64,000 bases of DNA. Origin: an uncultured Schlesneria sp. Lineage in GTDB: Bacteria > Planctomycetota > Planctomycetia > Planctomycetales > Planctomycetaceae. The notes under the pieces were generated by a model. That model saw only the letters and a program-made list of their open reading frames with translations, ran no database searches and had not been told where the DNA came from. A program made the position numbers and the translations under genes. Where the stretch lies: contig CAIOKO010000039.1 of the NCBI GenBank assembly GCA_903858935.1, forward strand, positions 1 through 64,000. The letters are read 5' to 3'. Shown in pieces: positions 8,227-60,629 of this stretch; within the stretch, counting starts at the first letter, position 1; each line of letters begins with the position of its first letter.

Positions 8227-8430
8227 CTTAATTGCTTTACCACATCCTGATCATGGTATACGAACTCGCGAATAAGCCGATATTAAAAATGATCGCTCCA
8301 AACGAAATCTGACGCGTTTTGCCGTTTTAGTGTCCTGGAAGGACAAAAACGCTTCCAAGCCAAATTCCTATCTGTGTGATTCTGTGTGCATCTGTGGCTA
8401 GTTCGTTTTCTCCTTCTCTCCCCGACTTCA

Positions 8431-9375
8431 TTATTTCTTCTTGCTTGTTTCTTGTGGTTTAAAATTGGGGACAAGCTCGATCGTGACTTTGGTTCCTGCC
8501 GGCGGAATTCGTTCGGTGAATGCTTCAAACATCAAATCATCGTTCGTCGCACTGCTGGTCGCGGAAATATCGAGTGTGGCCGAAGCAAAGTTGGCGACAC
8601 AGATCAGGTCACCCGATTCTGCCTGATAAAATTTCTCGCCTGTCTTTTCATCTGTCTGAAAATAACTCCCCGCAAAGACCCAGTTCGCGTCCATCTGGCG
8701 GATCTGAGTATTCTTGAAGAAGGACTGAATCGCCTTTTGAAACTTCAGGTCTTTAGAAATCTTCAGGACTTCGTCCCGTTGAGCTTCCGACATGTGACCA
8801 TACCAGAGCAGTTCACGATTTCTCTCATCCCATTTCAGATCGGTGTTGGCGGGGAGCTTAAAGCCCGCCGGCGGCGGATCAAGTTTCTCGACGAAGTACC
8901 GTCGAGTTGCATGTCGCACCCAGGACTGAGCTACATCGCGGTGCAGTTTGCCGTCATCGTCATTCCAGGTAAAAAAGATGTCAATCGGCTGTCCAGTCGC
9001 CGGCTGAAATTCCGGTTGCCAGTGAACGGGTTTGCCCACCTTCGCACCCAGAGCTAGCAAACCGGCATGAACAATCTGAGCCTGCGTATCCACCGAAAGA
9101 ATCGATTCGTGTTCTTTCGATCCTTTGAGACAAACCAATAACTCAAGCAATCCCTCTCGCAAGACAACCTCAGACTTCAGCAGCAGCCTTTTTCCTTTGG
9201 CATCCAGCAGAACGGTGCCGGTCTTGTTGAGTGGTTTAAAGCTATCGGTCTCTTTCGAGGCCAACGGCGACGGCTCCGACTTTTTGTCTGCTTTTTCATC
9301 GGCAAGCAAAGCAGAAACATGCCACGCAATGAGCGGTGGCAACAACAGCAACAGAAAACGAAACGATCGGGCCAT
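8431..9375 (-). CDS. Secreted YdjY-domain protein
   Basis: Exported protein of unknown function. A signal peptide (MARSFRFLLLLLPPLIAWHV) follows the Met at 9375, chosen over one eight codons upstream because it starts a normal signal sequence. The body carries features I recognise from planctomycete YdjY-domain proteins: HESILSVDTQAQIVHAGLLAL early, WVFAGSYF in the middle, and QAESGDLICVANF and FEAFTERIPPAGTKV near the C-terminus. The domain is named after an E. coli ferredoxin-like protein, but no cysteine cluster is present here. It stands alone, with no obvious operon partner. Confidence 0.75.
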   Translation of the reverse strand: MARSFRFLLLLLPPLIAWHVSALLADEKADKKSEPSPLASKETDSFKPLNKTGTVLLDAKGKRLLLKSEVVLREGLLELLVCLKGSKEHESILSVDTQAQIVHAGLLALGAKVGKPVHWQPEFQPATGQPIDIFFTWNDDDGKLHRDVAQSWVRHATRRYFVEKLDPPPAGFKLPANTDLKWDERNRELLWYGHMSEAQRDEVLKISKDLKFQKAIQSFFKNTQIRQMDANWVFAGSYFQTDEKTGEKFYQAESGDLICVANFASATLDISATSSATNDDLMFEAFTERIPPAGTKVTIELVPNFKPQETSKKK

Positions 9376-34823: not shown

Positions 34824-36050
34824 TTATTCCTGGATTTCGCTGTAAACGTGCTGAGCTCCCGCCAGTACGACGCAACCGTCGCAATTCTGCAGCAGGCGAA
34901 TGACTTCCCGTTCGTGTTCAATCGGGGTCATATAAGTACGTTCGACGAACTGACTGTCCAGCTGGCTGAGCAGGTAGACCGAGGCCCAATCGGCAGCGGC
35001 GGCGATTTGTGATGCCGGCAGAACATCGGGAGGGGCAGCTTTCCGCAACGGCTGTAAAGCAGATTTCGCCGAGCGACAGTTACCAATCATGTCGACACCG
35101 GCCCCTGGTTCGGCTGCCAGGTCGGACAGGACAATAATCTTACCACCTTGCACGATCAATTTTCGTGCCGCATCCACAGCCGCACCTAAATCGGCCCACG
35201 TGGTTTCGTCGCCACTGGAGGGGATTGCGACCAGCGCGGTTTCACCACGCTGGTCGAGTGTCACTCGCCAGTTGTCGTCGAGCAGCTTTCGTCCTCGCTG
35301 GGCCACCTGATCGGTGTTTCCCATTAATACCCCAGCCATCCCCGCGTGACTTCGCGAAGGAAGGACCTGGATGGCAAATTGAATTCCCAGTAACCACGCC
35401 ACTTCGTTAATGAGTTGTCGGAGTGGCCGTTCGTCGTCGGGACCAAGTTCCTGATGGCCCTGGCCAAGCGTTTTCGCAAACGCTTCGGGGTTTGATAGTC
35501 CTGGATAGAACGCACTGGTTAATTCGCGACGACCGAGCATGGCATCAAACCCGAACCGCCCGATCGGTAAAACAAAGTCCGCGTCAAGGACTTCGCGAGA
35601 AAGATACAGCCGTTCTCCGGCTGCGCTCGATGCCAGGTAGCCCGTGCCATCAACGAGTGTCGGGTCGTGAATTTTCCATGCGATCTGTTCGCGAATATCC
35701 GCTGGCAACAGACGACGGGGATCAGCGAGCTTGATCGGGGTCATTGACGCCGGCTGAAGAATCAGGACGTTACCAGGCTCAATCCCCGCCGAAACAAACG
35801 CCGACCAGATTCCGCTGATGATTTCTGCCGCCGACGGGACCGCGCGATCGAGAACAATAACGACTCGATCACCAGGAACCATGGCCAGTTCCAGAGCCGG
35901 AAATTCAATCGGCTGTTGCACACCTTCTAAAACCGACGCCAGGGGATTGACGATCGGTGCCGGGCCTGGATGCGAAAAGAGGAGACGCTCGCTCGACAGA
36001 TCGCCTTCCCAGCGTCCGTTGGATCCATATTCGAGCGAGATCAGACTCAT
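34824..36050 (-). CDS. LarA-like (DUF2088, lactate racemase domain) protein
   Basis: A 408-residue protein. The N-terminal half resembles the LarA N-terminal domain (LELAMVPGDRVVIVLDRAVP, GIEPGNVLILQPASMTPIKL, ADFVLPIGRFGFDAMLGRRE), and the C-terminal half resembles its Rossmann-like domain. LarA is a nickel-pincer racemase of 2-hydroxyacids. The usual DKTRP-type motif reads LDRAVP here and the histidine pair that follows is not obvious, so racemase activity is doubtful. The ATG at 36050 overlaps the thyX stop by four bases (ATGA). The longer frame to 36140 lies inside thyX and is rejected. Confidence 0.72.
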   Translation of the reverse strand: MSLISLEYGSNGRWEGDLSSERLLFSHPGPAPIVNPLASVLEGVQQPIEFPALELAMVPGDRVVIVLDRAVPSAAEIISGIWSAFVSAGIEPGNVLILQPASMTPIKLADPRRLLPADIREQIAWKIHDPTLVDGTGYLASSAAGERLYLSREVLDADFVLPIGRFGFDAMLGRRELTSAFYPGLSNPEAFAKTLGQGHQELGPDDERPLRQLINEVAWLLGIQFAIQVLPSRSHAGMAGVLMGNTDQVAQRGRKLLDDNWRVTLDQRGETALVAIPSSGDETTWADLGAAVDAARKLIVQGGKIIVLSDLAAEPGAGVDMIGNCRSAKSALQPLRKAAPPDVLPASQIAAAADWASVYLLSQLDSQFVERTYMTPIEHEREVIRLLQNCDGCVVLAGAQHVYSEIQE

Positions 36051-37003
36051 TGTTCGGTACTTTCTTTTTCCGAGCTGGTTGGATTCGCAGGAGTTTCCAG
36101 CCGCCGCAACAGGCCCAATCCAATCAGCTTGTCTCGACATTCATCGCGTTCGCGGCAGCGTGCCAGATCTTGCCATGTTGGGTCTTGATGCGAAAGGAAA
36201 TCCGCTTCGCTATACGGCGGGGCTGATTTCGTGCGGGCTCCGTGTTCCGTCAATTTCTTAATGACTTCGATTTCCAGGCGACTGAGCGACGATCCACCAA
36301 GACGGTAGTCTTCAAATGCTTCCCAGACGACCGGGAAAAGAGGGCGGACAATCTGCTGTCCGATCGCGGTTGCATACAAGCGAATTTCCTCTTGCGCATG
36401 GGAGTCCATTCGCAGGGCAAGGAAGTGCAGTAGATTATGTAAATCGACTTTCCAATAGGCTTCGGTGTACGTCGAAAGCGGCAAATCCTTTCTCGCTTGT
36501 TCACGAGCGACCCCCGCTGTCAGTCGAGCATCGTAAACTCGTCGCGATTGCTGCTGAAGCTGATGTTCTTCTTCTGTCAGTTTTTGGCCGATATCCGTTG
36601 GCAGCGGCACATCGCTCCCCTGGCGATTGATCGACGCTTGTGAGCGCCAGGCCGACGGCAATGTCGTCTGCGTCGAATCGATGGCTTCCGAATACCGGGT
36701 ACTGTATTCGTTGACGTTCGCTGTCCGGTGTCGAATCCACTGTCGCCAGCAGTCCATCGGAACTCGGACGAGAAATTTGATCTCGGCCATTTCAAACGGG
36801 GTGGTATGACGATGTCGCAACAAGTACCGAATCAACGAGCGATCGTCAGAAACGCGTTTTGTGCCGGCCCCGTAGCTGACGCGAGCCGCCTGAACGACGG
36901 CAGAATCATTCCCCATGACGTCAACCAGACAGACGAATCCGTCATCGAGTACCGAGAACTTTTTCCATCGCAACTGCTCGACCAACGATAATGTTTCGGA
37001 CAT
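36047..37003 (-). CDS. thyX: FAD-dependent thymidylate synthase
   Basis: ThyX methylates dUMP to dTMP using methylenetetrahydrofolate, FADH2 and NADPH. The signature RHR(T)xxxNExSxRY is present as RHRTANVNEYSTRYS (residues 91-105). Other family parts are VVQAARVSYGAGTKR, the HTTPFEMAEIKFLVRVPM helix, AREQARKDLPLSTYTE and LHNLLHFLALRMDSHAQEEI. The length of 318 is somewhat above the usual 220-270 because of an extended C-terminal tail. The gene leads a minus-strand series and is translationally coupled to a LarA-like gene. Confidence 0.95.
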   Translation of the reverse strand: MSETLSLVEQLRWKKFSVLDDGFVCLVDVMGNDSAVVQAARVSYGAGTKRVSDDRSLIRYLLRHRHTTPFEMAEIKFLVRVPMDCWRQWIRHRTANVNEYSTRYSEAIDSTQTTLPSAWRSQASINRQGSDVPLPTDIGQKLTEEEHQLQQQSRRVYDARLTAGVAREQARKDLPLSTYTEAYWKVDLHNLLHFLALRMDSHAQEEIRLYATAIGQQIVRPLFPVVWEAFEDYRLGGSSLSRLEIEVIKKLTEHGARTKSAPPYSEADFLSHQDPTWQDLARCRERDECRDKLIGLGLLRRLETPANPTSSEKESTEQ

Positions 37004-48443: not shown

Positions 48444-51044
48444 TCAATCATTCCAGACCAGCACTTCGGAAACCCCACTGCGAGACTGGCCTTGATGTGT
48501 GAAGACAATCCGAACCTTCGATGATTTCACGGCATCAAACCGAACTTCGTTCCATTGACCACCGATGGGATGTTCGGGGATTCTTTTGCCGTTCAAAACG
48601 TCGATCCATTCGGTACCAGACCGATACTGAACGACATAAGACGCCGGTGCCTGCACGCCACCTCGATCGTCGTAAATCGCCAATTCGACACGACGGAATT
48701 CTGTGACTTGACCGAAGTCAATCTCGAGCCAATCGGTTGCTGACTTTGATTCATAACTGGTCCAGCGGTTGGGGGGATTCGGCAGAAAAGTCGTCACCCC
48801 GTCATTCGCGGTCTCAATCCGGTCAAAGCGGGACGTGTGTGATGCACTCGCCTTGGGAAATTCACCGCCGTTGTTTTTCGGTCCCGGGTTGTAGGCGAGG
48901 TTGCCCGCCGGTGGCGCTTGCGGCACAAGCGGAAGGGTCACGTCTCCCCAGACTTCGATCTCTGACAGTCCCGACTTTCCATTATCGGGATGATGCAACG
49001 TGACTCGCACTTTCGTTGCTTCGATCATGTCGAACTCAACGACATTGGCACGATGACTTTGTGGCTTTCCATACACATCGGTCTTTGACACGATCGATTG
49101 CCAAGCGTTGCCAACCCACGCTTCCAGGTCGATCTTTTGCGGAGTTCGTACTTTTGAGTTGTTCTCGCCTGCATCATCCAATGGATAAAGTTTAATCGTG
49201 TGAATCGGCCGTTTCGTACCAAAGTCGATGACGACGGAATCTTTACCGTTGGGAGATCCCTCACACGTCCACCGATTCGGCGGATGCGGCATGTACCAGA
49301 AATTGCCATCGTTCAATTTACTGATGGACGTATTCGGCGACGAATACGATGCGACGATTCGCGGATAGTACGTTCCATCGTTGTTCACGGCAAAGTTGAC
49401 GGTCGCTTCTGCGCGTTGGGTTGGCGTCGGTCGTGACAACGGCGGCAACTTGATCGTAAGCGGTTCAAGGTTCGTCGACGATGCCAGTTTTTCTCCGTCA
49501 GCAAAAATCGTTAACCCCTGCCCACGTCGATAGCGAGTACCCAGCCGATCCCACACGATGCTGATTCGGCGTCCGTGATAGATGACGTCATCCAGTGCGA
49601 ACCAGTCCCATGATGACGGCACCAGTGGTGTTAACTCAAAGCTCGGGGCCTCGGCAGGGTTGAGGTAATTTGACGGTATAACAGGCTTCAGACCCACCAA
49701 TCCGGTGATGACAAGGTCACAGAATCCCGAATGAAAATAGTGTTCGCTGTGGTTGTAACCATCGTGACCTTCGAATGAACCGGTATCAGGATGCAAGGCT
49801 TCAGCCAGGTACGGCTTTCCGTTCTTGCGATGCGAACGGGCATAAATCTGCAGTAGTTTCACATAGTCCAACCGCGAGAGATCCGACTGCCGGCTACTCT
49901 GCAAGACGTTCGCCATCGCTTTCAGTGTTTGTGTGGTGGCATACGGCCACGACTGACCACTCCACCAGCAACACGATTTTTGTAGCAAAAACATCGGGTC
50001 GTGCCGTTCAACGGTCGTCGGTCCGAAGTCGGCATAGAAGCCATCATGGTCTATTAGCGGTTTCCAGGCCGCTTCGTAGCCTTTGTTTTCATCGAGCATG
50101 TTGAATTGCCAGGGGACATATCCGATCAACTCACGACCATGCACATCGCCTGAGAACTGTCCAGTCTCATACGTTTTAGAGAGTGCCTTGATCTTGTGGC
50201 CATCTCGTTCTTCGTCGTTCTTGTAAACCGGGAAAAAGAACTTCCGCCGATCGTCCCAGAGCAGTTTTTCCATATTGCTTTTGAGCTTCGCCGCTTTCTG
50301 CTCGAACTGCAGCTGCACGTCACCTTGACCGGCGAGTCGTGCAATCTGAGCAATGGCGACCGCATCAGCCCACATGTAGGCATTGAACGAGGGACGATAA
50401 CTCGGTGCCCCTCGCAAGATGTCCTGTGTCTGGCGGCTATTGATGTTGAATTCCATCCCGTCGTCGTGGCCAGTCTGCCAGAACAGGCCAACCTCTTTCA
50501 CGTAATGACGTTCTTCCCAGCCCTCGTAGTTCTTGATCAGATCCGGCAACAGGTCGATCAAAAACTTGTCGTCCTGATGCACCGTACCAAAAGCCATTAT
50601 GGCATCAGCCAGCCATGTACTATAGTTTCGCGGTTGAGCACCCGGCGTGCGGAACCAGTAACGCGCATAGTCGCGCCCGATCTGCGGCTTCCTTAACCAG
50701 CGAGCCTCATAAAGCTGATGTCCGGCGGGACAACTGATCGCTCCATAAGCCCCCGACCAGAATGGTCGATCAATAAACTCGGTAAATGAATAACCGCTGT
50801 TCGGCGAGCCGTAGGTCAGATGCTTGGTCAGCAATTCCCAGCGATAGTAATAGGTCGTCGTGATCTCAGGATCAGGGCATTCAAAGAATGGAATATGTTC
50901 GGCGTACCAGTTCCAGTCACGGTTATCCCAGAAGGTTTGCTCGCTGAGCAACTTCTGTTTGTTGAGGATTTGACCTTCGACATCGCGAGATACTGCGATC
51001 GAGACCAGCGCTGCCATTACAAGTATTGAGAAATGAAATTTCAT
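48444..51044 (-). CDS. Exported glycoside hydrolase (MGH1/GH63-like) with two discoidin domains
   Basis: An 866-residue exported protein with a signal peptide (MKFHFSILVMAALVSIAVSR). Residues about 30-540 form an alpha/alpha-toroid glycosidase of the MGH1-like (GH63-related) family: YYYRWELLTKHLTYGSPNSG near the start, YNSxxADAIMAFG-like WLADAIMAFG, DDGMEFNINSRQT, AYMWADAVAIAQIARLAGQG, SCCWWSGQSWPYATTQTLKA and HYFHSGFCDLVITGLVGL. Two F5/8-type (discoidin) carbohydrate-binding domains follow (WTCEGSPNGKDSVVIDFGTK and WTSYESKSATDWLEIDFGQV). It probably trims complex glycans outside the cytoplasm. The HEAT-like gene lies 18 bases upstream and is likely co-transcribed. Confidence 0.88.
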   Translation of the reverse strand: MKFHFSILVMAALVSIAVSRDVEGQILNKQKLLSEQTFWDNRDWNWYAEHIPFFECPDPEITTTYYYRWELLTKHLTYGSPNSGYSFTEFIDRPFWSGAYGAISCPAGHQLYEARWLRKPQIGRDYARYWFRTPGAQPRNYSTWLADAIMAFGTVHQDDKFLIDLLPDLIKNYEGWEERHYVKEVGLFWQTGHDDGMEFNINSRQTQDILRGAPSYRPSFNAYMWADAVAIAQIARLAGQGDVQLQFEQKAAKLKSNMEKLLWDDRRKFFFPVYKNDEERDGHKIKALSKTYETGQFSGDVHGRELIGYVPWQFNMLDENKGYEAAWKPLIDHDGFYADFGPTTVERHDPMFLLQKSCCWWSGQSWPYATTQTLKAMANVLQSSRQSDLSRLDYVKLLQIYARSHRKNGKPYLAEALHPDTGSFEGHDGYNHSEHYFHSGFCDLVITGLVGLKPVIPSNYLNPAEAPSFELTPLVPSSWDWFALDDVIYHGRRISIVWDRLGTRYRRGQGLTIFADGEKLASSTNLEPLTIKLPPLSRPTPTQRAEATVNFAVNNDGTYYPRIVASYSSPNTSISKLNDGNFWYMPHPPNRWTCEGSPNGKDSVVIDFGTKRPIHTIKLYPLDDAGENNSKVRTPQKIDLEAWVGNAWQSIVSKTDVYGKPQSHRANVVEFDMIEATKVRVTLHHPDNGKSGLSEIEVWGDVTLPLVPQAPPAGNLAYNPGPKNNGGEFPKASASHTSRFDRIETANDGVTTFLPNPPNRWTSYESKSATDWLEIDFGQVTEFRRVELAIYDDRGGVQAPASYVVQYRSGTEWIDVLNGKRIPEHPIGGQWNEVRFDAVKSSKVRIVFTHQGQSRSGVSEVLVWND

Positions 51045-51062
51045 GATGATTTTATTCTTTGT

Positions 51063-52448
51063 TCACGGCGTGATTTCTTCCAGGAATGTGAAACCAAACC
51101 GACGTCCCTTGTAGAACGCAACGGGTTTCAATTCACTATCACCCATCGCTTTTCCGCCGGGCTTCAAGCTGTCGTCCTGGACCTCGATACCGACGTAAAG
51201 CAATCCGGGTGTTCCATGTCGAGTGATAAAGAGGAACGTGGCCGTTTCCAATGGCGCGACGGATTGCGCAGCTTTGTCATAATGAAGTAACAAAGTTTCC
51301 GTGAGACGCCCTTCGGCTTGTAAGTCTTTCAGAGTGACATCAGCGAAATTGCTCTTCCATCGTTCTTTTCCAAGTTCCCATGCGCGAAGACCAATGGACC
51401 GCAGCGCAAAGATCTTCCGCCCGTCGGCGGTCTCGAATTCCGTACCCATTAAATCAAAACCTTCTCGCGTGGCCCAAAACACAATTTCATCGAGATGGGA
51501 TTCAATGTCGATGGCGTTTCGCCATTTTTCTGGTAGCGCTGCCGCACGCCCGACATCAAAATCGTAGAAAACAAGCTTCGCGCTCGGATTCTGGTACGAT
51601 TCGAGAATCCAGTTGCTGCTACGGCCGTTGCCCGTCTTAAAGTGGCTATCGGCTGAAGGTGGAAGGATTGGTCCTTCGTCTTCTCGTTGCGGAAGATGGA
51701 CTTTCGAATACTCTTGATCCTGTAAGTAATCCATCCATTTCTGTTCCCACCACTCTGCCCACGTTTCAGCAAGTCGTTGAAAACAGACACGCTTTCGTTG
51801 CTGTTGCGACGCAGAACCGACGAAAAAAACAACAAACAGCTCTTTTTCTTCGAATTCTTTTCCCGTCAGTTTGTGGAGTGCACCGCAGATTTCTCGCACC
51901 GGTCGCCCAAATCCGTATTCATTCGCGTGATTCGTTGGACGAATATCGTTTTCTTGTGCGAATTTCAAAAGTTCTGGATCGTCTGCTCTTAGCCCCATGT
52001 CAGAACCGGGTGGAAGCAAAGTCTTAGGAATCGCACGAATCAGGGACGGGATCGCTCGTTTGTCACCGATGGCTCTGAGAACAAAGCCTAGGCATCCCAG
52101 CATCATGTCATCGTCGGTGGAATCCAGCTCTTGAATCAATTCCGGAACGGCGTCCGATCCCAAATCGGCGATGTCTTTCAGCGTCCGGCACCAAGCTTCA
52201 CTGTAACGTTCTTTGCCAGCATTCTGCTCTTTTAACTTGTCGAGTAACCGACGCGTCGCCGTTGCCTCCGGCTGTTCCTTGGAAGGTAGTTCCTCGCGCT
52301 TATCAACGGTTTTTACATCACCAGCTTCCGAAGCGAACTTGTCCGACGGTTGATTTGCTGAAAGAACATCAATCAATCCAATCCCGCAGATCGAAATGAC
52401 GGTCAACCATAACAATGTCACTCCATTTTCATGCCATGATCGAGCCAC
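51063..52448 (-). CDS. Exported hypothetical protein with HEAT-like repeat
   Basis: A 461-residue protein with an N-terminal membrane/signal segment (VTLLWLTVISICGIGLIDVL). Residues about 90-150 (AVPELIQELDSTDDDMMLGC, LGFVLRAIGDKRAIPSLIRA) look like a HEAT repeat. The middle has an LTGKEFEEKELFVVFFVGSA stretch and a Trp-rich linker (WAEWWEQKWMDYL). The C-terminal half is beta-rich and unknown (GFDLMGTEFETADGRKIFAL). I cannot assign a function. It is the first gene of a probable two-gene unit with the discoidin glycosidase. Confidence 0.65.
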   Translation of the reverse strand: MARSWHENGVTLLWLTVISICGIGLIDVLSANQPSDKFASEAGDVKTVDKREELPSKEQPEATATRRLLDKLKEQNAGKERYSEAWCRTLKDIADLGSDAVPELIQELDSTDDDMMLGCLGFVLRAIGDKRAIPSLIRAIPKTLLPPGSDMGLRADDPELLKFAQENDIRPTNHANEYGFGRPVREICGALHKLTGKEFEEKELFVVFFVGSASQQQRKRVCFQRLAETWAEWWEQKWMDYLQDQEYSKVHLPQREDEGPILPPSADSHFKTGNGRSSNWILESYQNPSAKLVFYDFDVGRAAALPEKWRNAIDIESHLDEIVFWATREGFDLMGTEFETADGRKIFALRSIGLRAWELGKERWKSNFADVTLKDLQAEGRLTETLLLHYDKAAQSVAPLETATFLFITRHGTPGLLYVGIEVQDDSLKPGGKAMGDSELKPVAFYKGRRFGFTFLEEITP

Positions 52449-52540
52449 TATGTCTCTCCTGGAAATGAGTCAAACGTGAATACGCAGATCCATGATCAGG
52501 CGCCCGAAATTTTAATCAAGCTTGGGAAACCAACAATTCC

Positions 52541-52586
52541 AACGAAACCCCACCCCCTCTACGGGGGTGGTTAACGGGCCTTTGCC
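52541..52586 (+). repeat. Dispersed repeat, copy 3
   Basis: AACGAAACCCCACCCCCTCT is followed by ACGGGGGTGGTTAACGGGCC and TTTGCC. It is closely related to the copy at 27936-27983 and, in reverse, to the one at 17877-17925. The CCACCCCC and GGGGGTGG parts form a hairpin. It lies upstream of the HEAT-like gene, next to a VapC remnant. Confidence 0.65.
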
Positions 52587-52648
52587 CTACCAACTGAAAC
52601 CGGACTCGTTGAACGAATAGACATGCGAGTTTGGAATCGACTCGTTTT

Positions 52649-52765
52649 TTATCCCCAATAATCAACTTTCAATCCCGGCACTTTGTCGAAGTCACATCGA
52701 TTGCGCGAAACCAATTTTGCCGAATGCGAAACACAGATTGCAGCGATTCGCAAATCTTGGGAACC
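52649..52765 (-). pseudogene. C-terminal remnant of a VapC-type PIN toxin at the element boundary
   Basis: The minus strand reads [20 protein letters not shown] followed by [18 protein letters not shown] and a stop. This is the standard end of VapC toxins (GxxDLxIAAxALxHxAxLVTRNxRDFxxVPGLxVxxW), including the last acidic residue. The upstream two thirds of the gene are missing; the frame runs directly into a tRNA 3'-half sequence. The gene was presumably cut by integration or deletion at this point. Confidence 0.7.
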
Positions 52766-52792
52766 GAGGGTTTGAGGTTCGAGTCCTCACGG
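52755..52792 (+). repeat. tRNA 3'-half sequence, probable attachment site (att)
   Basis: The sequence has a complete T arm, TGAGG-TTCGAGT-CCTCA, followed by CGGGTGC and A, the 3' strand of an acceptor stem plus discriminator, without encoded CCA. To the left CTTGGGAACCGAG looks like an anticodon loop and 3' stem, but these bases also read as VapC codons, so the extent is unclear. No 5' tRNA half is present. The integrase stop codon lies about ten bases to the right, which is where an att site is expected. Confidence 0.6.
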
Positions 52793-52801
52793 GTGCATTT
52801 C

Positions 52802-54241
52802 TTAAAGTGAAGCCAGCAAAGAGTTAATCTTCTGGACTTCAATTTCGGACAAGTGGGAGATTGGTTCCGTTCCCCCCACAAATCCCCCCACTAATGGGGG
52901 TTTGTCTCCGGCGGAAAGTTTCTGCCGCACCTCTGCCGCCGCAGATTGTGCAGAGCGCATGGCACCATAAAACTTCTGCGTGGTCGCAAAGTCTGCGTGC
53001 CGCATCACCACCATCAGCGTTTCCGCTGAAACGCCCGCGTTAATTAGCCTCAGGGCACAGCCCCGACGCAAATCGTGGGCACTCGCATATTTCACCCGGC
53101 TTTTTTTCCGTTCGTCCGCCTGTCGTACGACAACTTTGGCTTCCTTGCCAATCTTTGCAATCACTCGACTGACATGTTCTTTCGTCAGTCGTTCGACCGA
53201 CCGGCAGACGATACCTGGGGAACGCCAGTTGCCCGGCATCCGCAGTTCGTATTCCACCGGTCGCGGATTCACGACCCAGCCCGTTCGTTCACCTTCGGGA
53301 ACGGTCTCCAGCAGCGCTCGCAGATCCGGCAGCATAGGAATTTCCTGATGCACGCCATTCTTCTGCGTGGACGGAACAACAAGAGTTGGATGTTGCCCCT
53401 GTCGTTCCGGCCAGACTGGATAGATATGTCGGTCATCGTCCCAACAGAAATCCATCACGTCCCCAATACGGAAGCCACTCCCCCACAGAACGCGGAGAGT
53501 GAACTGCCATGATTGAGCGCTGCCTGCTCCTACCACTTGCGGAGTCGTTGCGAGCATCCGCTCGAATTCTTCCACAGTGATCGGACGCCCCTTCATGACG
53601 TCGTCCACGTCCAACTTCTGAAGTTGCGGAACGCGGTCGAGCCAATCGTGAGCATGACAGTATCGTACGAACGCCATCACAGCCCCCAGCATACTGTTGA
53701 CCGTGTTGGGTGAACGCGTGTCATAACGACATTCGTCCCCAGCGAGCAACCGCTCTTGAAGATACTCCAGCATCTCCAGGTTGCAGCACTCACGAACAAA
53801 TATCCCTCCGTCGCATCCTTGCTCCCGGAAGTAGTCAGCGAAAATCCTTTCCGCCAGTTGCAAACGTGACAACGCGTGCGTGAGTGATGCCTTTCGAAGG
53901 CGGCTCGCACGATGCTGACGAAAGCGATCATAGGCATCGTCCCACGTTTTGCCACGGTTTTCGTCAGCGCTATGTGGGTCCGTTTGCTTCTTTGGAACCA
54001 GAGATGCGGGTTGTTCGACGATCGCACCATCTGACGCGACGTATTCACCGTTGAGCAATCGCTTCTGACATTCCCGTTGAATCCGCCGAGCCTCACGCTG
54101 GTCTCGCGTCCCACAGTTCTTTCGCACCCGCTGGCAGCGGATTGGGCAATAGAACTTAAGCACGTAGCCATTCTTGTCCGACGCCTGGAGCGGTCGATTG
54201 GGGTACAGTTGAATATTGCCGATTTCGGGCTTCCTCGACAT
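52802..54241 (-). CDS. int: Tyrosine-type site-specific integrase
   Basis: A 479-residue recombinase. The N-terminal arm-binding and SAM-like core-binding parts cover residues about 1-210. In the catalytic domain all six key positions are visible: Arg 258 (GSGFRIGDVMDF), Lys 294 (STQKNG), His 389 and Arg 392 (SAHDLRRG), His 415 (MRHADFATT) and Tyr 425 (QKFYGAM). It should be active as read. The C-terminus (LVGGFVGGTEPI) is glycine-rich. The stop codon lies next to the tRNA-like att site. The excisionase-like gene is 31 bases upstream. Confidence 0.95.
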   Translation of the reverse strand: MSRKPEIGNIQLYPNRPLQASDKNGYVLKFYCPIRCQRVRKNCGTRDQREARRIQRECQKRLLNGEYVASDGAIVEQPASLVPKKQTDPHSADENRGKTWDDAYDRFRQHRASRLRKASLTHALSRLQLAERIFADYFREQGCDGGIFVRECCNLEMLEYLQERLLAGDECRYDTRSPNTVNSMLGAVMAFVRYCHAHDWLDRVPQLQKLDVDDVMKGRPITVEEFERMLATTPQVVGAGSAQSWQFTLRVLWGSGFRIGDVMDFCWDDDRHIYPVWPERQGQHPTLVVPSTQKNGVHQEIPMLPDLRALLETVPEGERTGWVVNPRPVEYELRMPGNWRSPGIVCRSVERLTKEHVSRVIAKIGKEAKVVVRQADERKKSRVKYASAHDLRRGCALRLINAGVSAETLMVVMRHADFATTQKFYGAMRSAQSAAAEVRQKLSAGDKPPLVGGFVGGTEPISHLSEIEVQKINSLLASL

Positions 54242-54272
54242 AGAGGAGTCCTTTCAATTCTCAGAGGATTAA

Positions 54273-54488
54273 TCATGTTTCTGGCTTTCTTTCTGCGTTC
54301 CTCGAAAAATGCTCGATGAGATCCTTGCCAGTCACCCAACGCGTGTGACCCACGATCATGTAGGGCAAGCCCTCGTCGAGCATCTTATCCCAAACTTTCT
54401 GAGAAACACCCAGACGCCGCAAAAATTCTTGCTTGCTGTACGCTTCGTGTTCACAAATTGTTCCGACAGTCTCTTGATGGTGTCGCAT
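54273..54488 (-). CDS. Excisionase-like helix-turn-helix protein
   Basis: A 71-residue protein started at MRHHQETVGT (54488); the frame is open to 54632 without family features. The sequence YSKQEFLRRLGVSQKVWDKM, LDEGLPYMIVGHTRWVTGKD and LIEHF fits a MerR/AlpA-type excisionase fold that binds DNA with a winged helix. It is placed directly before the integrase gene, as is usual for a directionality factor. Confidence 0.78.
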   Translation of the reverse strand: MRHHQETVGTICEHEAYSKQEFLRRLGVSQKVWDKMLDEGLPYMIVGHTRWVTGKDLIEHFSRNAERKPET

Positions 54489-54595
54489 GGCAATTCCTTT
54501 CGCATACAACAAACAATGATTTCCGAAGCTGGATTGAAATTCCCGCCCCTGTCCAAGGCTCGTTTTGCACTCTTGTCCGCCGACAACACTTAACC

Positions 54596-55897
54596 TCAAA
54601 ACGGGACTTCGTTTAAGTCGGCGGATGTCCAATCTGCCGGCATTTCCGGCAACTGCAATGCCTCTTCGTCTACGCCACAGACGTCAAGGACAGAAGGCAG
54701 CGGACTGTCTCGGACTTCGCGGATTGAGAGATCCGCTGGGATCATCCAACCAGCAGGGATCGGCCCTCGTGCTGGTGTTGACTGCGTTATCACCCCTCGT
54801 TCGAGGAGTTCCGCCAGGTGCTCGCGCACCGTACGTTCGCTCATGTTCATTGACTGGGCTAATTTCTTGGCGGTGTGCTCACCTGTGAACGTTCTGACTC
54901 GGGCCACAAACCGCTTTAATGCCTCTGCCGGTTTCCGGCCCAGGCTTTGGCCGAACACTTCATCAAGCAGAATCCGCGCTAGGAAGTAATCTTCCGGCTG
55001 TGCCACGATGCACCCCTTTTCATCACGTTCCCGCTGGTATTGATGCAAGAGTGCAATGGTCTCGATCATGCTCGCCATGTGGCCAAATGATCGTCGTACT
55101 TCCAAGGGTTCCTTAGGGAACAACGCCGCCAGTCGATTAGCAAAAGGAATCACCGCTTGAAGTGGAGCGAGGCAGCGGTGGAGACACTTGAACTCTTCCC
55201 GCACCTCGCCCCGGCGTTCGCTACTCATTTCACCCGACGATCGTTTAGCGTGCGCTGCCAGGATTTTCTCCGTCTGTTCTGGCCGCTCATCTGAGTGAAG
55301 GACCAGGCACCGATTTGCATCCTCTTCGAAGACTTCTGGTGCCGTCGTCGATTCCACATACGCGATCGGCCCCTTCCGGTGAACTGTCACCGACCGAGGC
55401 CCTTCGCCATCGGAGATTGTTACCACCTTCACTAATTCACCGGCAGAGATCATTTCCCGCAACGCTTTTGTTGTTTGGGCCGTCTCATCGTTTTGTCGTC
55501 GTGGGCGTTCCCCCGCGACGACGAACTTGTGCTCAAGCTCACCCGTTGGCAGGTAATAGAGTGCATTCTGTGTGATCTCGGTGGCCGACAAAATTGCTTC
55601 TGCCGGGAACAACTTTGCGACTTGTTCAATCACATACGATTTCCCCGAAGCGGACGGCCCTTGAACGATGACCGACAACGGACGGTCTAACAGTCTCGAC
55701 GTTCCTGTGAGATAGATCGTCAAAGCGAGCAATCGCTCACCTGCAACGCCCGCCTCTTCGATGCTGTTCACGACCCAACGCAGCAAGTTAGGTGACTTGA
55801 GCGTCAATTCCATTTTTGCCCGCACGTATTCCGGCATTTCAGCCAGTAATTCTTCCCGCGTCTTTCGAATTATCTTTTCTTCAAGCAAGAAACTCAT
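54596..55897 (-). CDS. P-loop ATPase with C-terminal winged helix (element replication helicase-like)
   Basis: A 433-residue protein. Walker A is GPSASGKS (residues 80-87). VVAGERPRRQND and SAGELVKVVTISDGEGPRSV resemble the primase-helicase ATPases of mobile elements; a clear Walker B is not visible to me. Residues about 330-385 form a winged helix (HTAKKLAQSMNMSERTVREH, LAELLERGVI). There is no TOPRIM or AEP primase domain, so it is the helicase/ATPase part only. Its ATG overlaps the stop of the Rep gene by four bases, so translation is coupled. Confidence 0.8.
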   Translation of the reverse strand: MSFLLEEKIIRKTREELLAEMPEYVRAKMELTLKSPNLLRWVVNSIEEAGVAGERLLALTIYLTGTSRLLDRPLSVIVQGPSASGKSYVIEQVAKLFPAEAILSATEITQNALYYLPTGELEHKFVVAGERPRRQNDETAQTTKALREMISAGELVKVVTISDGEGPRSVTVHRKGPIAYVESTTAPEVFEEDANRCLVLHSDERPEQTEKILAAHAKRSSGEMSSERRGEVREEFKCLHRCLAPLQAVIPFANRLAALFPKEPLEVRRSFGHMASMIETIALLHQYQRERDEKGCIVAQPEDYFLARILLDEVFGQSLGRKPAEALKRFVARVRTFTGEHTAKKLAQSMNMSERTVREHLAELLERGVITQSTPARGPIPAGWMIPADLSIREVRDSPLPSVLDVCGVDEEALQLPEMPADWTSADLNEVPF

Positions 55898-56811
55898 GCG
55901 GCCTCCTTCTTGGCGGGAATGCCGAGTTCAATCGCCTTTCGCTGCACTTCTTGCTTGAACTGGCGGCCCTTCATCTCTTCGCCAATTTCGTTTTCGAGTT
56001 GCCGCCAGGCGTCACCAAAGTCATCAATCCCGTTGCGTGCAGCCAATCCGATGAGAGATGCAGCAACTCGCTTCACCAAGAACGATGTATCCATTGCAGG
56101 CACCGACGCCGCACGCCTGATTCGCTCATCAAAGATGCCGAACCTTTCTGCACACTCTTGAATCATACGCCAGATCGGAAGCACCGTGCGGCGAGTCGCG
56201 TTCTCGTTGTCCTGCTGTCGCAATGAGAACCATTCTTCGGTCAGATAGCGCCAAACTCGACCTTGCTTCTCGCTCAAATCGTTCAGGGAGTTAATCCCGA
56301 ATCCTTTCAACGCTGTGCGGCGTAACTGAAACTCACACCGCCACACGTCGACATTTTCGGTGATTTGCCATAGCGGAAGAAACCATGTCTTTCCGCTCGC
56401 TTCAATTTCTACGGACTTGTCGTAAACACGAAGCATGATCTCCGCACCTGGTTGTCCTTGATAGAACGTACGCAAATCATCGCTTCCGAGGTGAATCCTC
56501 CGATCTTTACTTCGACACACTGCATGACGCCGTAGAAACTCATCCGTCAAGCCGCCGGGAATTAGCATATCGACGCACAGGTCACATCGGTTGATGCGTT
56601 CCTCTCTCACCACTCCTTCAGCCAGTGCAGCCAACTTGCTCCGCACGTGGTCAATAGCGGCCCTCGGTCCTTTCGCCCATAGAAGCTGCGCGCTCACCGA
56701 GACGAACACATTCGGAGTATCGCCGATCGGCCCTCCGGTGCGAGACAGGTACAACTGAAAGTCAGGGAACTGAACATGGAATGGGAAATTCGGCTTCCCA
56801 CTGGCAAGCAC
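55894..56811 (-). CDS. Replication initiator (Rep_trans-like), C-terminal part after an in-frame stop
   Basis: A 305-residue frame that opens with GTG directly after the TAG ending the preceding frame, in the same reading phase. It shows Rep_trans-type features: KPNFPFHVQFPDFQLYLSR, INRCDLCVDMLIPG, EIMLRVYDKSVEIEASGKTW and VDVWRCEFQLRRTALKGFGI. Such proteins nick DNA to start rolling-circle replication; the catalytic tyrosine may be that of RVYDK or one elsewhere, which I cannot decide. It is probably the larger part of one protein with the frame at 56812-57246. Function depends on suppression of the stop or internal initiation. It is coupled to the ATPase gene. Confidence 0.75.
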   Translation of the reverse strand: MLASGKPNFPFHVQFPDFQLYLSRTGGPIGDTPNVFVSVSAQLLWAKGPRAAIDHVRSKLAALAEGVVREERINRCDLCVDMLIPGGLTDEFLRRHAVCRSKDRRIHLGSDDLRTFYQGQPGAEIMLRVYDKSVEIEASGKTWFLPLWQITENVDVWRCEFQLRRTALKGFGINSLNDLSEKQGRVWRYLTEEWFSLRQQDNENATRRTVLPIWRMIQECAERFGIFDERIRRAASVPAMDTSFLVKRVAASLIGLAARNGIDDFGDAWRQLENEIGEEMKGRQFKQEVQRKAIELGIPAKKEAA

Positions 56812-57246
56812 CTAGCAGCGTCCATCACCCGCGACTTGACCACCGTTTCGGGACGCTTTCCGTTTCAATTCTCCGAGCTTCGCCACGATTCGCGGCCAAT
56901 CTTCGGCGAATTCGACGTATAGGTTTACATCCAGCGTATCGACCCCCGACAAAAGAACTCTTGTCCCCTTATCGCCTATCTGAACTAATTGATCGCTCTC
57001 TACTGAACTATAAACTTTCCCCTTTAAATCCTTCTTCCCCCCTACTGAAACTTTAGGGGGGCGTGTTACAAATAACGCCCCCCGATCAAATGCGACGGTC
57101 GCCGGTTCGCCCGCGTATCCGCGGCTCCCGGCGACCTCTGCATTTGTTGCATTCGATACGCTTCCATGGTTATTGCTGTCGTCAGCAGTGACCGCAGATG
57201 CGACATTCGCCGGATGTGGCGCACCCAGGGACGTAGAATCGTCCAT
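56812..57246 (-). CDS. Replication initiator (Rep_trans-like), N-terminal part
   Basis: A 144-residue frame ending in TAG. The first 75 residues are of low complexity. Then comes LLSGVDTLDVNLYVEFAEDW and PRIVAKLGELKRKA, which match the N-terminal strand-helix of planctomycete Rep_trans proteins (GxDTLDxxLYVxWxxxWP). The codon after TAG continues in the same frame into the next ORF (VLASGKPNFPFHVQF), exactly where the family sequence should go on. This is therefore one gene with a single nonsense codon, either a recent mutation or a read-through site. Confidence 0.7.
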   Translation of the reverse strand: MDDSTSLGAPHPANVASAVTADDSNNHGSVSNATNAEVAGSRGYAGEPATVAFDRGALFVTRPPKVSVGGKKDLKGKVYSSVESDQLVQIGDKGTRVLLSGVDTLDVNLYVEFAEDWPRIVAKLGELKRKASRNGGQVAGDGRC

Positions 57247-58172
57247 AAAGAAACTCCCTTTTGTGCAATAGACGCCCTTGCCTAACTGGATTGATCCAGT
57301 AGATTTGCCGTCGTTCCGTGATTCGGTGGTGCACTTGGGGAGTGGTGGGTGAGTTTTTTAGGTTGGGCCGGTTATTTTATTTTTGGGTACCATCGATTCT
57401 TTCTCGACGGCGAAATTTTTTATTCGGTTTGGCCCGGTGTGTAGTTTTAATGTGTTGTTAAAGTGTGTGCTTGTTTTTTATATTGGAACGTTCGGCATTC
57501 AATTCGACGCTTCGCCTTCCGATTGGTGTCCTTCACCAAATCGGCACCCTTGTTGACTTGCGATTGCTCTCCCGTGGACCGTCCAAGGGCATACATCGAG
57601 CAGAAGCCGCTTTAGGGATGCGGACAACGTTGACCTATTTGGAATATCGTGAAGTGTTCGATGCGACCTACAGACATTCTTTTGGACTAATTATTTTTTC
57701 CATAATGTTAGCCTTTTCCTAAAATCCCTCATTTCTGGTCTCGCTTCGGGCGTGCCCCTGGCGGGTCGGGCTCTCCGCTACGATGAAGACATCTCCGCTG
57801 CGATCCCTCACGCAAATGCACCTTGCACGACGAGGCCGCTTGTCTGACCGTCTTCGTCCGTCGCGGCCAGGGAACCCCACACGAGCCCTAACCGCGACGG
57901 ACGAAGACGGCAGATCGAAACCGGCAGACATCGCCGTTCATTCAGCTCAATTCGGATGGCTTCGCCGCTGAAGAGTTGTTTCAAAGGCCCTTCCGCTTGG
58001 GCCCAAATCCGGCAGCCTTGACGGATTCCCAATATGATATTGGCCAATGATTTTTGGCTTCGGCCAGAAATGTCAATGAAGGGTATTCAGGCCTTTAAGT
58101 CAGGGCTTCGTGACATGGCTTCCCGTCACAGTGACCCTAGGAATTGGCTAACAACGATGGAAAGGTGATTTC
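57247..58172. other. Gene-poor region to the right of the element core
   Basis: About 900 bases with no convincing gene. An AT- and T-rich stretch at 57340-57480 follows the rep start and could hold its promoter or an origin. At 57848-57866 and 57892-57910 lie two perfect 19-base arms (CCGTCTTCGTCCGTCGCGG and its complement) around 25 bases. A plus-strand frame at 57465-57722 is open but shows no family features. Confidence 0.4.
57848..57910. repeat. Perfect 19-base inverted repeat
   Basis: CCGTCTTCGTCCGTCGCGG and its exact complement are 25 bases apart. The arms are GC-rich and no T-run follows on either side, so a simple terminator is unlikely. It may be a REP-like unit or a protein-binding site of the element. 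Confidence 0.65.
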
Positions 58173-58337
58173 TCATCGGCTGATTTTCAGATTTGGCAGC
58201 GATTCTTGGAGTTCGTTTATCCCGCATCAGTAGTTTGTGTATCCCCTGACGAAAGCATGACGATGTTTTTGAGTCCGCCGAGTTCTTTCAATCCAATATC
58301 CGTGATCTGGTTGTTGTCAAGGTAAAGCGAATCACTT
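58173..58337 (-). pseudogene. C-terminal remnant of a leucine-rich-repeat protein gene
   Basis: On the minus strand one frame reads SDSLYLDNNQITDIGLKELG then GLKNIVMLSSGDTQTTDAG and a stop. After a shift of frame it continues as ELQESLPNLKISR and a stop. The LxLxNNxITDxGLKxLxxLKNL pattern and the ending ELQxxLPNxKISR are the normal end of planctomycete LRR proteins. A frameshift has separated the last repeat. The upstream part of the gene is absent. Confidence 0.65.
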
Positions 58338-58350
58338 CAGGACATTTCCG

Positions 58351-58692
58351 GTGGGGGTGCTTTGTATACGGATAACAACACACCCATCTGGACCGGGGAA
58401 CATCGGTCAAATAAGATGCAATCCAGGATGGCGTCGCACCGCAGTTGGCCCAAGCGACACGGAGGATCCGACCAGATTTATAAACATGGCTCGCGGGATC
58501 AATTGGAGATGGAGGTGGAGCGGATTTGATCTCGGCCAACTCAATGACTCCGAACCTCAGGAGTCGACTAGGCTAGGCTGGTGGTTAATTCCACATTGGT
58601 TCATGACCCTTCCGCTGACGCTGCTCTCGACGTATTCGCTACTCAGCACGCCGCGAAGTGTGAAGCCGACATCAGATTTTCAGACCACATAG
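58351..58692 (+). pseudogene. Remnant of a small membrane protein gene (relative of the 10914-11438 protein)
   Basis: From about 58486 the frame reads MARGINWRWRWSGFDLGQLN, then STRLGWWLIPHWFMTLPLTL and LSTYSLLSTPRSVKP. The WWxIPxWxxxLPLTLLSxxLLLSTP part resembles the second membrane segment of the intact protein at 10914-11438. The first membrane segment expected upstream is missing and the bases there give no family sequence. It could be a short real gene, but a truncated copy is more likely. Confidence 0.5.
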
Positions 58693-58735
58693 CCGTGGTG
58701 AGTCAGGTATATCATTCCCCTTTTTTTCGGCCATC

Positions 58736-59464
58736 TCAATTGTTATCCGGCATCTTCGACTGGGCTTCGTTGCCGATGTCCTCAATAACCATCTCGATTT
58801 CCTTCGAAAAATTCAGTTTGTCGTCGTTTTCATCGTTTTTGATTCGAAAACAAGCAAAGGAAAAGACAGGCGCAGTGATTGGATCAAACCAGGCAGTGGA
58901 CTCCTCAATCTGTGCGCGAGTCGTGATTGCCGTCTTGTCCGTTCTTGTCCGCGCCTCTGAAATCGACAAGCGTCCTTTTTGATAATCGACATTACGCGCT
59001 TTGTCCAGACGTTCTGTTTTCTGCCACCTACCGGGAAAAAACCTCAGAAGGTTGCTGTTTGATTTGATTTCTTGCCCAAGTTTTATCGCTCGCACATCGA
59101 AGTCACCGTTTTTAAACCAGCCACGCTTGAGACCTCCGAGCGGCTTTTCACTTTCGAGCAAATCCTTTTCAGGGATGAGAATCTTATACAATGAAATTCT
59201 CTCTTTATTTTCCAGTGACCAAACACGGTTCAGTTCGACCCATCGGCATTTCTCGCCATCTTCAGTTCTGGTGCCTACGAGAGAACACGTCATTTTTTCC
59301 GTATATTCTCCTCGGAACACCCCATTGACTTCCGTCTTCTCATTCCATGAATATCTGATCCACCAACCGTCGTCGGGTAGCTTTGCGGTTTGATCTTCCG
59401 CGTTAGTGTTCAGATCATAAACCCAAGTAATCAGGAAAAGAGAAATGGCAACACGAACATTCAT
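58736..59464 (-). CDS. Exported hypothetical protein
   Basis: A 242-residue protein with signal peptide MNVRVAISLFLITWVYDLNT. The mature part begins DGWWIRYSWNEKTEVNGVFR and contains CSLVGTRTEDGEKCRWVELN; it appears beta-rich, with KILIPEKDLLESEKPLGGLK in the middle and a charged end. I recall similar lone secreted proteins from planctomycetes but know no function. Base composition is more AT-rich than that of the flanking chromosomal genes, in line with the accessory setting. Confidence 0.65.
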   Translation of the reverse strand: MNVRVAISLFLITWVYDLNTNAEDQTAKLPDDGWWIRYSWNEKTEVNGVFRGEYTEKMTCSLVGTRTEDGEKCRWVELNRVWSLENKERISLYKILIPEKDLLESEKPLGGLKRGWFKNGDFDVRAIKLGQEIKSNSNLLRFFPGRWQKTERLDKARNVDYQKGRLSISEARTRTDKTAITTRAQIEESTAWFDPITAPVFSFACFRIKNDENDDKLNFSKEIEMVIEDIGNEAQSKMPDNN

Positions 59465-59487
59465 GGATCGGTTCCTTCAACTCAACG

Positions 59488-59691
59488 TTATTCGTTGTTG
59501 TCTTCGAGGAGAATTGTTAGTAAACCCTTAGCGCTCCCTGCCTTTCGGGGTTTGCGTAGCGGTGGTTCTTCGGCCTGCAAACGGGCAATCGGCTGATGAT
59601 TGCGAGCAATCACCAGGAACTCACCCGATGCCAAGTGATCGATCAGTTCCGGCAAATTGGCCTGAGCCTCTTCGAGAGTCACAGTTGTCAT
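59488..59691 (-). CDS. Phd/YefM-type antitoxin without adjacent toxin
   Basis: A 67-residue protein with the Phd-like DNA-binding fold: TVTLEEAQANLPELIDHLAS, GEFLVIARNHQPIARLQAEE, then RKPRKAGSAKGLLTIL. In VapB/Phd partners of PIN toxins the chain normally ends in a longer acidic toxin-binding tail after AKGLxT; here it stops soon after with LEDNNE, so the tail may be cut. No PIN, Doc or RelE gene follows. A hypothetical exported protein gene is next on this strand. Confidence 0.75.
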   Translation of the reverse strand: MTTVTLEEAQANLPELIDHLASGEFLVIARNHQPIARLQAEEPPLRKPRKAGSAKGLLTILLEDNNE

Positions 59692-59722
59692 TTTTCAATC
59701 ACTTTCTGACCAACGAGGCCAA

Positions 59723-59923
59723 TCAATCACGCAACTCACGCGTATATTTCACGGCGACATCCACCGTCCCGACCCTCTTTCTTGTCTCCTCACGCATGAA
59801 ATCCATCCGCTCCCACGACTTCCTCATTTCTTCGGGGTCACGAGGTTCGCCCCTCATCAACTTGGCGATGAGTTCATCGACCTGTTGTTTCGTGACTTCG
59901 GTGGTGATGGATTCTGTGGACAT
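59723..59923 (-). CDS. Small antitoxin-like protein
   Basis: A 66-residue, highly charged helical protein: TTEVTKQQVDELIAKLMRGE, PRDPEEMRKSWERMDFMREE, TRKRVGTVDVAVKYTRELRD. The pattern RDPExxxxxxERxDxxREExRKRxGxxDVAVxxxRExRD is found in small proteins often encoded just before PIN toxins. Here a Phd-type antitoxin follows after 31 bases and no toxin. The role as antitoxin is inferred from this resemblance only. Confidence 0.55.
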   Translation of the reverse strand: MSTESITTEVTKQQVDELIAKLMRGEPRDPEEMRKSWERMDFMREETRKRVGTVDVAVKYTRELRD

Positions 59924-60003
59924 GTATCGATTGTCGGCAGACTTGGCGCGAACGTCAACTGAAATCTGCCACGTCTACAATCCGCCTGAAACTGACGTCA
60001 ATG

Positions 60004-60042
60004 GGGACGGTCTCCGAACTTTGCAAGTTCGGAGACCGTCCC
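60004..60042. repeat. Perfect 18-base hairpin (GGGACGGTCTCCGAACTT)
   Basis: GGGACGGTCTCCGAACTT and its exact complement are separated by TGC only. The GGGACGGTCTC core resembles, in style, the GGGGACAGGT and GGGTCTGACCC elements of this window and is likely another REP family. It lies five bases from the end of an integrase remnant. Confidence 0.7.
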
Positions 60043-60046
60043 GTTG

Positions 60047-60178
60047 TTAATTTGCGAGTGCCTTTTCTTCCCAATGACCGATTTCGACGCCGACATCATG
60101 CTTCGGCCCTCCCCCCATTAATCCCCCCACTAATGCACGAAAGCTGCGTTTTAGCAACGTCTTGTCGAAGCGTAGTCA
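60047..60178 (-). pseudogene. Possible C-terminal remnant of a second integrase
   Basis: On the minus strand a short frame reads LRFDKTLLKRSFRALVGGLM then GGGPKHDVGVEIGHWEEKAL and AN before a stop. The LVGGLMGG part and its DNA (GCATTAGTGGGGGGATTA) match the end of the intact integrase here (LVGGFVGGTEPISHLSEIEV), and both DNAs share AATCCCCCCACTAATG. The catalytic domain is absent. Similarity is short, so this is a tentative reading. Confidence 0.4.
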
Positions 60179-60182
60179 AAAA

Positions 60183-60209
60183 GAAAACCCCTGCAAAACA
60201 GGGGTTTTC
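60183..60209. terminator. Intrinsic terminator hairpin
   Basis: GAAAACCCCTG and CAGGGGTTTTC pair perfectly around CAAAA, giving an 11-base stem flanked by A- and T-rich ends. It could work in both directions. It lies between an antitoxin-like gene (60348-60629) and the integrase remnant. Confidence 0.65.
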
Positions 60210-60347
60210 TCAAGCATTCGGAACGCGTTGGGAAAGCGAACAAGTCTTCGGAACCGATCCGTACATTCCGACTTCGCCACTGCTGAAACAAAAGGTCGGC
60301 TTCCGGTGCCTATGAAAGGACGATGATTTGTCGAAATGCCGTTAGTG

Positions 60348-60629
60348 TTAACTCAATTCTAGCCGCTGGGCATCACGTTGGCTGTAGATTTCGTTGCAGA
60401 TGTCATTGAGCACGGGATCATCGCGAAAGATGCCTGATAATGCCGCCACGCCACCCGGCCGAACTTCAAGATCGATCAGTTCGCCTGCAGCGATCTTTTC
60501 GGCCAATTCGCGTTCAAGTGCAGCGATAGCTTCGCCGCGCGAGGCGCGGACAGCATGCAATGTTGATGATCCCAACAAGCTGGCGTTGAACTGCCCGTTC
60601 GATTCTTCAACAAGAACGGTCACTGTCAT
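60348..60629 (-). CDS. Small antitoxin-like protein (HicB-like N-terminus)
   Basis: A 93-residue protein started at MTVTVLVEES (60629); the frame is open to 60713 without family features. The first half (NGQFNASLLGSSTLHAVRAS, RGEAIAALERELAEKIAAGE) resembles the strand-helix fold of HicB-type antitoxins. The end (FRDDPVLNDICNEIYSQRDA) is like small proteins encoded just before VapC toxins in planctomycetes and cyanobacteria. No toxin gene follows: the next 300 bases hold a terminator and an integrase remnant. Confidence 0.6.
   Translation of the reverse strand: MTVTVLVEESNGQFNASLLGSSTLHAVRASRGEAIAALERELAEKIAAGELIDLEVRPGGVAALSGIFRDDPVLNDICNEIYSQRDAQRLELS

Follow-up and report, generated by a model that had tools for sequence, protein, structure and literature searches.

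A replication gene that is divided by a single in-frame stop codon raises the question of whether the gene has been lost, is translated across the stop, or gives two products. This question is posed by a rep gene in the 64-kb stretch of DNA analysed here (hereafter the window), which belongs to contig C39 of a Schlesneria genome of 7.9 Mb in 280 contigs (G000), probably that of a planctomycete living in a lake. The original prediction described a Rep_trans-like initiator in two frames and offered three readings: the element has just lost replication, amber read-through limits the amount of Rep, or the larger part is made from a GTG of its own. The first of these is the best reading. With a probability of about three in four, the stop is a very recent nonsense mutation, private among the compared copies, in the rep gene of an integrative element of the tRNA-Arg type of roughly 7.5 kb.

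Layout of the Interrupted Gene

The rep gene runs on the minus strand from 57246 to 55894 and comprises 450 codons in one phase with exactly one internal stop (Table 1). As had been described, the two frames are contiguous, share a phase and are separated by one TAG, and a GTG follows directly 3′ of it, at 56811. The downstream frame closes with TGA, and the 3′ end of rep overlaps the start of the next gene, a 433-aa P-loop/HTH ORF. A layout of one stop between open frames is not rare by itself within the window, where a single stop with at least 110 open codons on either side is found in eight cases, rep included; chance does not, however, explain why the two halves match a single family protein. 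The sequence read through the stop shows 72% amino acid identity to an uninterrupted paralogue on contig C157 of the same genome, over 420 aligned residues without a gap, and 37% identity to a more distant paralogue on contig C222.

Table 1. Features of the rep-bearing element, in window coordinates.
Feature	Position	Strand	Description
Left attachment core	52755..52803	plus	3′ part of tRNA-Arg(TCG), beginning in the anticodon loop
Tyrosine integrase	52802..54241	minus	Pfam Phage_integrase E 1.5e-9; PHROG integrase E 2.4e-23; open frame
Excisionase-like ORF, 119 aa	54273..54632	minus	named from position and length only; no family match
P-loop protein, 433 aa	54596..55897	minus	AAA_16 below cut-off; HTH_11 over cut-off; open frame
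rep, downstream part	55894..56811	minus	305 aa from GTG; motifs RxD, TxYxG, YxKxxE, RxE
In-frame TAG	56812..56814	minus	codon 145 of 450; sense codon in all homologues aligning there
rep, upstream part	56812..57246	minus	ORF 57246..56812, 144 aa, ATG start; disordered N-terminus, followed by strand 1 and helix 1 of the Rep_trans-like fold; contains invariant Asp103
Candidate nick-site hairpin	57056..57083	minus	9-bp stem, 10-nt loop ending TAAC; rep codons 55-64
Second inverted repeat	57087..57146	minus	adjoins the nick hairpin; candidate Rep-binding site
Non-coding block, about 270 bp	57745..58015	minus	strongly folding; long near-perfect stem, z -5.05
Cargo ORF, 242 aa	58736..59464	minus	no family match
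Phd/YefM-like antitoxin	59488..59691	minus	E 9.7e-6, below Pfam cut-off
ORF beside antitoxin, 66 aa	59723-59923		no family match
Proposed right attachment core	60244..60257	plus	matches tRNA-Arg at 14 of 14 bases; direct orientation

Family Identity and the Predicted Effect of the Stop

Against the Pfam Rep_trans profile (PF02486), the read-through protein scores 13.5 bits (E 0.053) and the C157 paralogue 19.2 bits, both under the curated cut-off of 29.6; because the scores fall below it, the protein is called Rep_trans-like and is not a Pfam member. All 14 relatives of the family alignment match the same profile at E values up to 0.1, the best being 1.1e-5. The sole sequence match among solved structures is RepSTK1 (4cij, E 0.026). 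The protein was folded as the read-through product, and the AF2 model has a mean pLDDT of 77.7 and a pTM of 0.73, with pLDDT of at least 90 in 238 of the 450 residues and below 50 in residues 1-88. Foldseek matches the model to the best chain of 4cij at E 2.7e-11, and structure comparison with RepSTK1 gives a Z score of 14.5 and an rmsd of 4.5 Å over 223 aligned residues, which identifies the Rep_trans catalytic fold in the model. The staphylococcal Reps 4cwe and 4cwc (RepDE) follow with Z scores of 13.2 and 12.1, and the next structural matches are TATA-binding proteins at 8.2 or less.

The motifs of the family, as given in the relevant part of one account, are an N′ Asp, RxD (I), T/SxY/ExG (II), YxKxxE (III), and W/LxRxE (IV) (PMC5714925). 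They are found here as D103, R220-x-D222, T260-x-Y262-x-G264, Y275-x-K277-xx-E280, and R303-x-E305, with V in place of the W/L of motif IV. Twelve residues are invariant among 47 sequences, including D103, R273, Y275, K277, E280, and E305, and R220, D222, G264, and R303 are conserved in at least 90% of them. RepSTK1 and RepD bind the metal through three acidic side chains, each contributed by a different strand and one of them close to the N-terminus; mutating any of these ligands lowers or abolishes activity (PMC4797284). D103 is equated with D9 from its order, its conservation and the residue numbering, the sequence alignment spanning RxD to YxK only. The sub-threshold profile scores, the matches of the relatives, the predicted fold, and the motifs together bear out the identification as a Rep_trans-like initiator.

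In the AF2 model, the stop falls in the strand of residues 144-147, behind the strand 96-112 that carries Asp103 and the helix 117-134. Of the fold, the 144-aa product contains only a single strand and a long helix; the 305-aa product is missing both of these as well as Asp103. D103 lies upstream of the stop and the remaining motif residues, including the catalytic Tyr, lie downstream in a different open frame, so that the window copy does not hold the three acidic ligands and the nucleophilic Tyr in one chain, as the open relatives do by alignment. Because the stop sits inside the catalytic fold and parts Asp103 from the catalytic Tyr, neither piece is expected to be active, and on the model neither should work alone.

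Homologues at the Stop Site

Homologues were aligned at the site of the TAG. Seventeen homologous genome frames were compared, and the 15 that reach the site carry no stop there: 13 have Leu, and two have Gln. The latter come from two related Schlesneria MAGs (G012 and G011) that carry the element at the corresponding chromosomal position, and both copies are open. The Gln of these sisters, where 13 of 15 frames carry Leu, shows that the site had left the consensus before the stop arose. Matches to rep occur in 6 of 15 genomes of the genus and in 20 of 150 of the family sample.

A first wider scan of contigs with a single-protein query found no loci; the wider scan of genome contigs with an alignment as query gave 59, several on the same contigs and partly overlapping the set of 17. 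Fifty-two of them align at the site, with L in 18, I in 10, T in 6, V in 5, Q in 4, A in 3, and M, S, and N in 2 each, the residue in the remotest loci depending on an uncertain alignment. None of these 52 has a stop at the site, in frames that had been cut at stops, so that a stop there would appear as a gap. Among the seven gapped loci, three start at a contig edge (L151, L165, and L198), and three are partial matches whose state at the site stays open (L196, L200, and L205). The seventh, L182 (Geomonas sp. Red32), encodes Val at this position but is interrupted by two in-frame stops at other conserved places. Both of its stops (locus 8001-8927) stand where relatives have Trp, and a frameshift near the end is likely, which makes it another broken member of the family. 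Weak one-stop fragments were also seen in G077 and on contig C87 of the window's genome. The homologues covered in full form a single chain, and the possibility that they too are two separate proteins does not hold. The hosts found are mostly Planctomycetota and relatives of Geobacter, with a few Bacillota. No relative was found in the phage collection, and the plasmid collection gave seven matches, all weak.

The Integrative Element

A tyrosine integrase is found together with tRNA-derived cores at both ends, and because of these tRNA-Arg cores the element is provisionally placed at about 52755-60257. The same element end as on the left abuts an intact tRNA-Arg(TCG) in G008 (C302), another Schlesneria MAG, and in G012 (C83). 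The right core, which is not significant in a BLAST comparison (E 1.6), is proposed from the exact match of 14 bases to tRNA-Arg; the segment recurs once in the window, where an exact 14-mer would be expected about 0.0005 times on both strands. A different element of G012 shares 59948-60208 at 92%. No tRNA gene was found in the window, and the window copy therefore stands at another kind of place. The open element on C157 (L003) has the same P-loop protein and a different integrase (Phage_integrase E 6.3e-12), the gene of which overlaps tRNA-Phe at its end. Two further observations concern mobile DNA in these genomes. In G012, an insertion at the place of window position 58576 (L021, 3580-5425) encodes a 527-aa DDE transposase (DDE_Tnp_1_6, E 4.1e-28), and contig C254 of the window's genome holds a cluster of four low-scoring extra tRNAs (two Gln, Lys, and Ile; 35468-36671), possibly a mobile-element tRNA array.

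Age of the Stop

Over 54386-58577, the window and the G012 copy differ at 4 of 4192 positions. The four changes are assigned to the branch of the window because G011 shares the G012 state at all of them, and they consist of one synonymous change in rep, the stop itself, and one synonymous and one missense change in the next gene. The three private changes besides the stop leave rep and its neighbour open, and the rep copy bears no sign of long decay. Between G012_C67 and G008_C302, dN/dS is 0.18 in codons 91-144 and 0.19 after codon 145; in the comparison with C157 the values are 0.31 and 0.19. Codons 1-90 give 0.88-0.94 with a dS that is also low, and no constraint at the protein level is visible there. 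The values for the folded part, about 0.2-0.3, show that it was under selection before the stop arose. The reading as a long-decayed pseudogene was rejected, since private changes are few and dN/dS in this part is 0.18-0.31.

The near-identical tract among three genomes extends from about 50750 to 60520, interrupted within the integrase gene (in parts of about 53250-54250) and, in G011, at 52194-52249; beyond its limits, identity per 250-base bin is about 81-95%. As the genome set contains one genome per species, the element and its surroundings have been recently shared among three species-level genomes of the genus. Within 53528-53979 of the integrase, many positions that differ from G011 and G012 match G008, which indicates a mosaic integrase; these differences were therefore read as a recombined stretch and rejected as private mutations.

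An error of consensus or assembly, or a minority strain variant that entered the consensus, would mean that the true gene is open. The window's genome is a 280-contig assembly, the relatives with matching records are MAGs, and the G011 copy is split over two contigs that overlap by 141 bases within rep, a sign of assembly ambiguity. Nevertheless, the change is a single clean substitution without a frameshift, and over kilobases the contig that carries the element stays about 99.9% identical to the sister copies. Such an error has a small chance of being the explanation. A recent nonsense mutation agrees better with the open copies at the same site in two genomes and the few other differences, and the proposal that the element has just lost replication is supported to this extent, the loss of activity being a prediction from the modelled fold.

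Candidate Origins and a Model of the Element

A hairpin within the 5′ part of rep is intact in the window copy, and the C157 paralogue shows a paired change in its stem. The folding z of the hairpin region is -7.0, -5.1, and -5.7 in three copies. Third positions of the window and C157 are identical in 27 of 30 cases in codons 46-75, which encode the hairpin and adjoin the second inverted repeat, and in 235 of 375 in codons 76-450; against G008 all of codons 1-75 are conserved, and the low third-position change in codons 46-75 is clear only against C157. In a first survey of 66 regions, a stem of at least 8 with a loop of 6-15 was found in 51 regions against 5.5% of shuffles, and a 10-nt loop in 28 against 0.5%. 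With the loop motif defined after that survey had been seen, 38 of 55 homologues have a stem with a 10-nt loop ending in TAAC or TACC on the 5′ side of the D103 codon, as against 4 of 2750 base shuffles, the controls in both counts preserving base composition only. Among those 38, the loop begins 62-68 nt before that codon in 32, and the hairpin as defined is missing at 17 of the 55 loci (3 Planctomycetaceae and 14 remoter). Eleven rows had been removed before this count (8 duplicate proteins or contigs, 2 same-site copies of the element, and 1 identical neighbour), with their identities spot-checked. In Rep_trans origins and MOBT nic sites, CT'AA stands in the loop of a G+C-rich hairpin, as set out in part of PMC9371924. 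By this analogy, the hairpin inside rep is likely to be the nick site.

The second candidate is the folding non-coding block, which lies 0.5-1.1 kb upstream of rep in all nine Schlesneria copies that have a good rep match and upstream sequence; the weak Rep hits G000:C87 and G009:C106 are without it, and short pieces of it occur upstream of rep in two other genera. In a tally that joined split matches, entered only part of the weak Rep hits, and omitted five weak matches to the block (G036, G038:C87, G132, G142, and G061:C1:7197027) as well as reverse-strand palindromic matches, the block is present at 11 of 21 Rep places, and 25 of its 36 copies have no Rep within 2 kb, the other 11 lying within that distance. 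The block as a rep-specific origin is not upheld by this tally. It may be a single-strand origin or a dispersed repeat, and both fit. A single-strand origin uses host enzymes only, as stated in a section of PMC5714925, and would fit because the block is conserved beside diverged Reps. Rfam gives two matches below the gathering threshold, Flavo-1 (31.8 bits against 42), which falls on this block, and CRISPR-DR25 (24 against 36).

From these features the following scheme can be drawn. Intact Rep would cut a single strand at the loop of the hairpin within the 5′ portion of rep itself, and from this nick the excised element would replicate as a rolling circle. In the window copy, translation would end at residue 144, within the catalytic fold, and the element would retain its attachment cores, its integrase, and a candidate origin without an active Rep of its own. 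The steps that we infer are the loss of activity, the use of the hairpin as the nick site, and the continued possibility of integration and excision. Because the candidate origin is intact and close to that of the C157 element, replication in trans by the open C157 Rep is conceivable, and a rep-less copy could then persist and spread; we give this a small chance.

Restart and Read-Through

A recent nonsense mutation must also be weighed against two readings in which the interrupted gene is still in use, both of which are unlikely. In one, the 305-aa part is a protein of its own that starts at the GTG and works alone or by complementing the 144-aa fragment. The GTG adjoins the stop, which makes reinitiation conceivable, and this part contains four of the five Rep_trans motifs. 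However, all five close copies already use this GTG to encode Val, so that it did not arise as a start together with the stop; the possibility of a new start was rejected on this ground. In addition, the homologues are single chains where covered in full, with L182 broken at other positions, and the 305-aa piece is without the first strand, helix 1, and Asp103. An active enzyme made from this codon is very unlikely.

In the other, programmed or tolerated amber read-through would yield a little full-length Rep and limit the copy number. The sisters have Gln at codon 145, and near-cognate reading of UAG can insert Gln. Yet this receives no support and is very improbable, as no homologue aligning at the site has a stop, the TAG in a single copy allows no conserved recoding signal to be demonstrated, TAG closes 3 of the 28 window ORFs of at least 300 codons, and no suppressor tRNA with a CTA anticodon was present among 51 tRNA matches in a search that scored 150 of 342 first-look candidates and could miss a very divergent tRNA.

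Relation to Known Systems

The window protein resembles RepSTK1 (4cij), 4cwe, and 4cwc in its predicted fold, in the motifs RxD, TxYxG, YxKxxE, and RxE, in the N′ Asp, and in a candidate nick hairpin within the gene. It differs from them in an identity of only 12-20% over the aligned part, in a disordered N-terminus of about 90 residues, and in its place on an integrated element with its own integrase, the window copy having a stop within the fold. With the MOBT relaxases (NicK of ICEBs1, Orf20 of Tn916, and RelSt3), it shares the Pfam protein family and the residence on integrated elements. The nick site of MOBT ICEs and IMEs lies in the loop of a G+C-rich hairpin, as proposed here for rep, and their CT'AA, in the part of PMC9371924 that describes it, contrasts with loops that are mostly CTGTAAC or a variant of it in the rep family. 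Unlike the MOBT elements, the window element has no identified N-terminal HTH or transfer gene, and the host range given above is a further difference. Finally, nonsense pseudogenes in integrated mobile elements likewise show one recent stop in a conserved gene with open relatives elsewhere, and only the element family differs. As a broken gene, rep looks like an ordinary case of very recent gene loss.

Significance

No description of a Rep_trans-like family of Planctomycetota and Geobacter relatives was met in the literature searched, which lay mostly outside subscription journals. The present analysis shows Rep_trans-like initiators in these hosts with a likely nick site inside the rep coding sequence. 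Moreover, with a broken and an open allele at the same site in near-identical elements, the first step of replication loss can be dated to within a few substitutions. If the rep-less copy were indeed replicated in trans, the stop would have turned a self-replicating element into a satellite.
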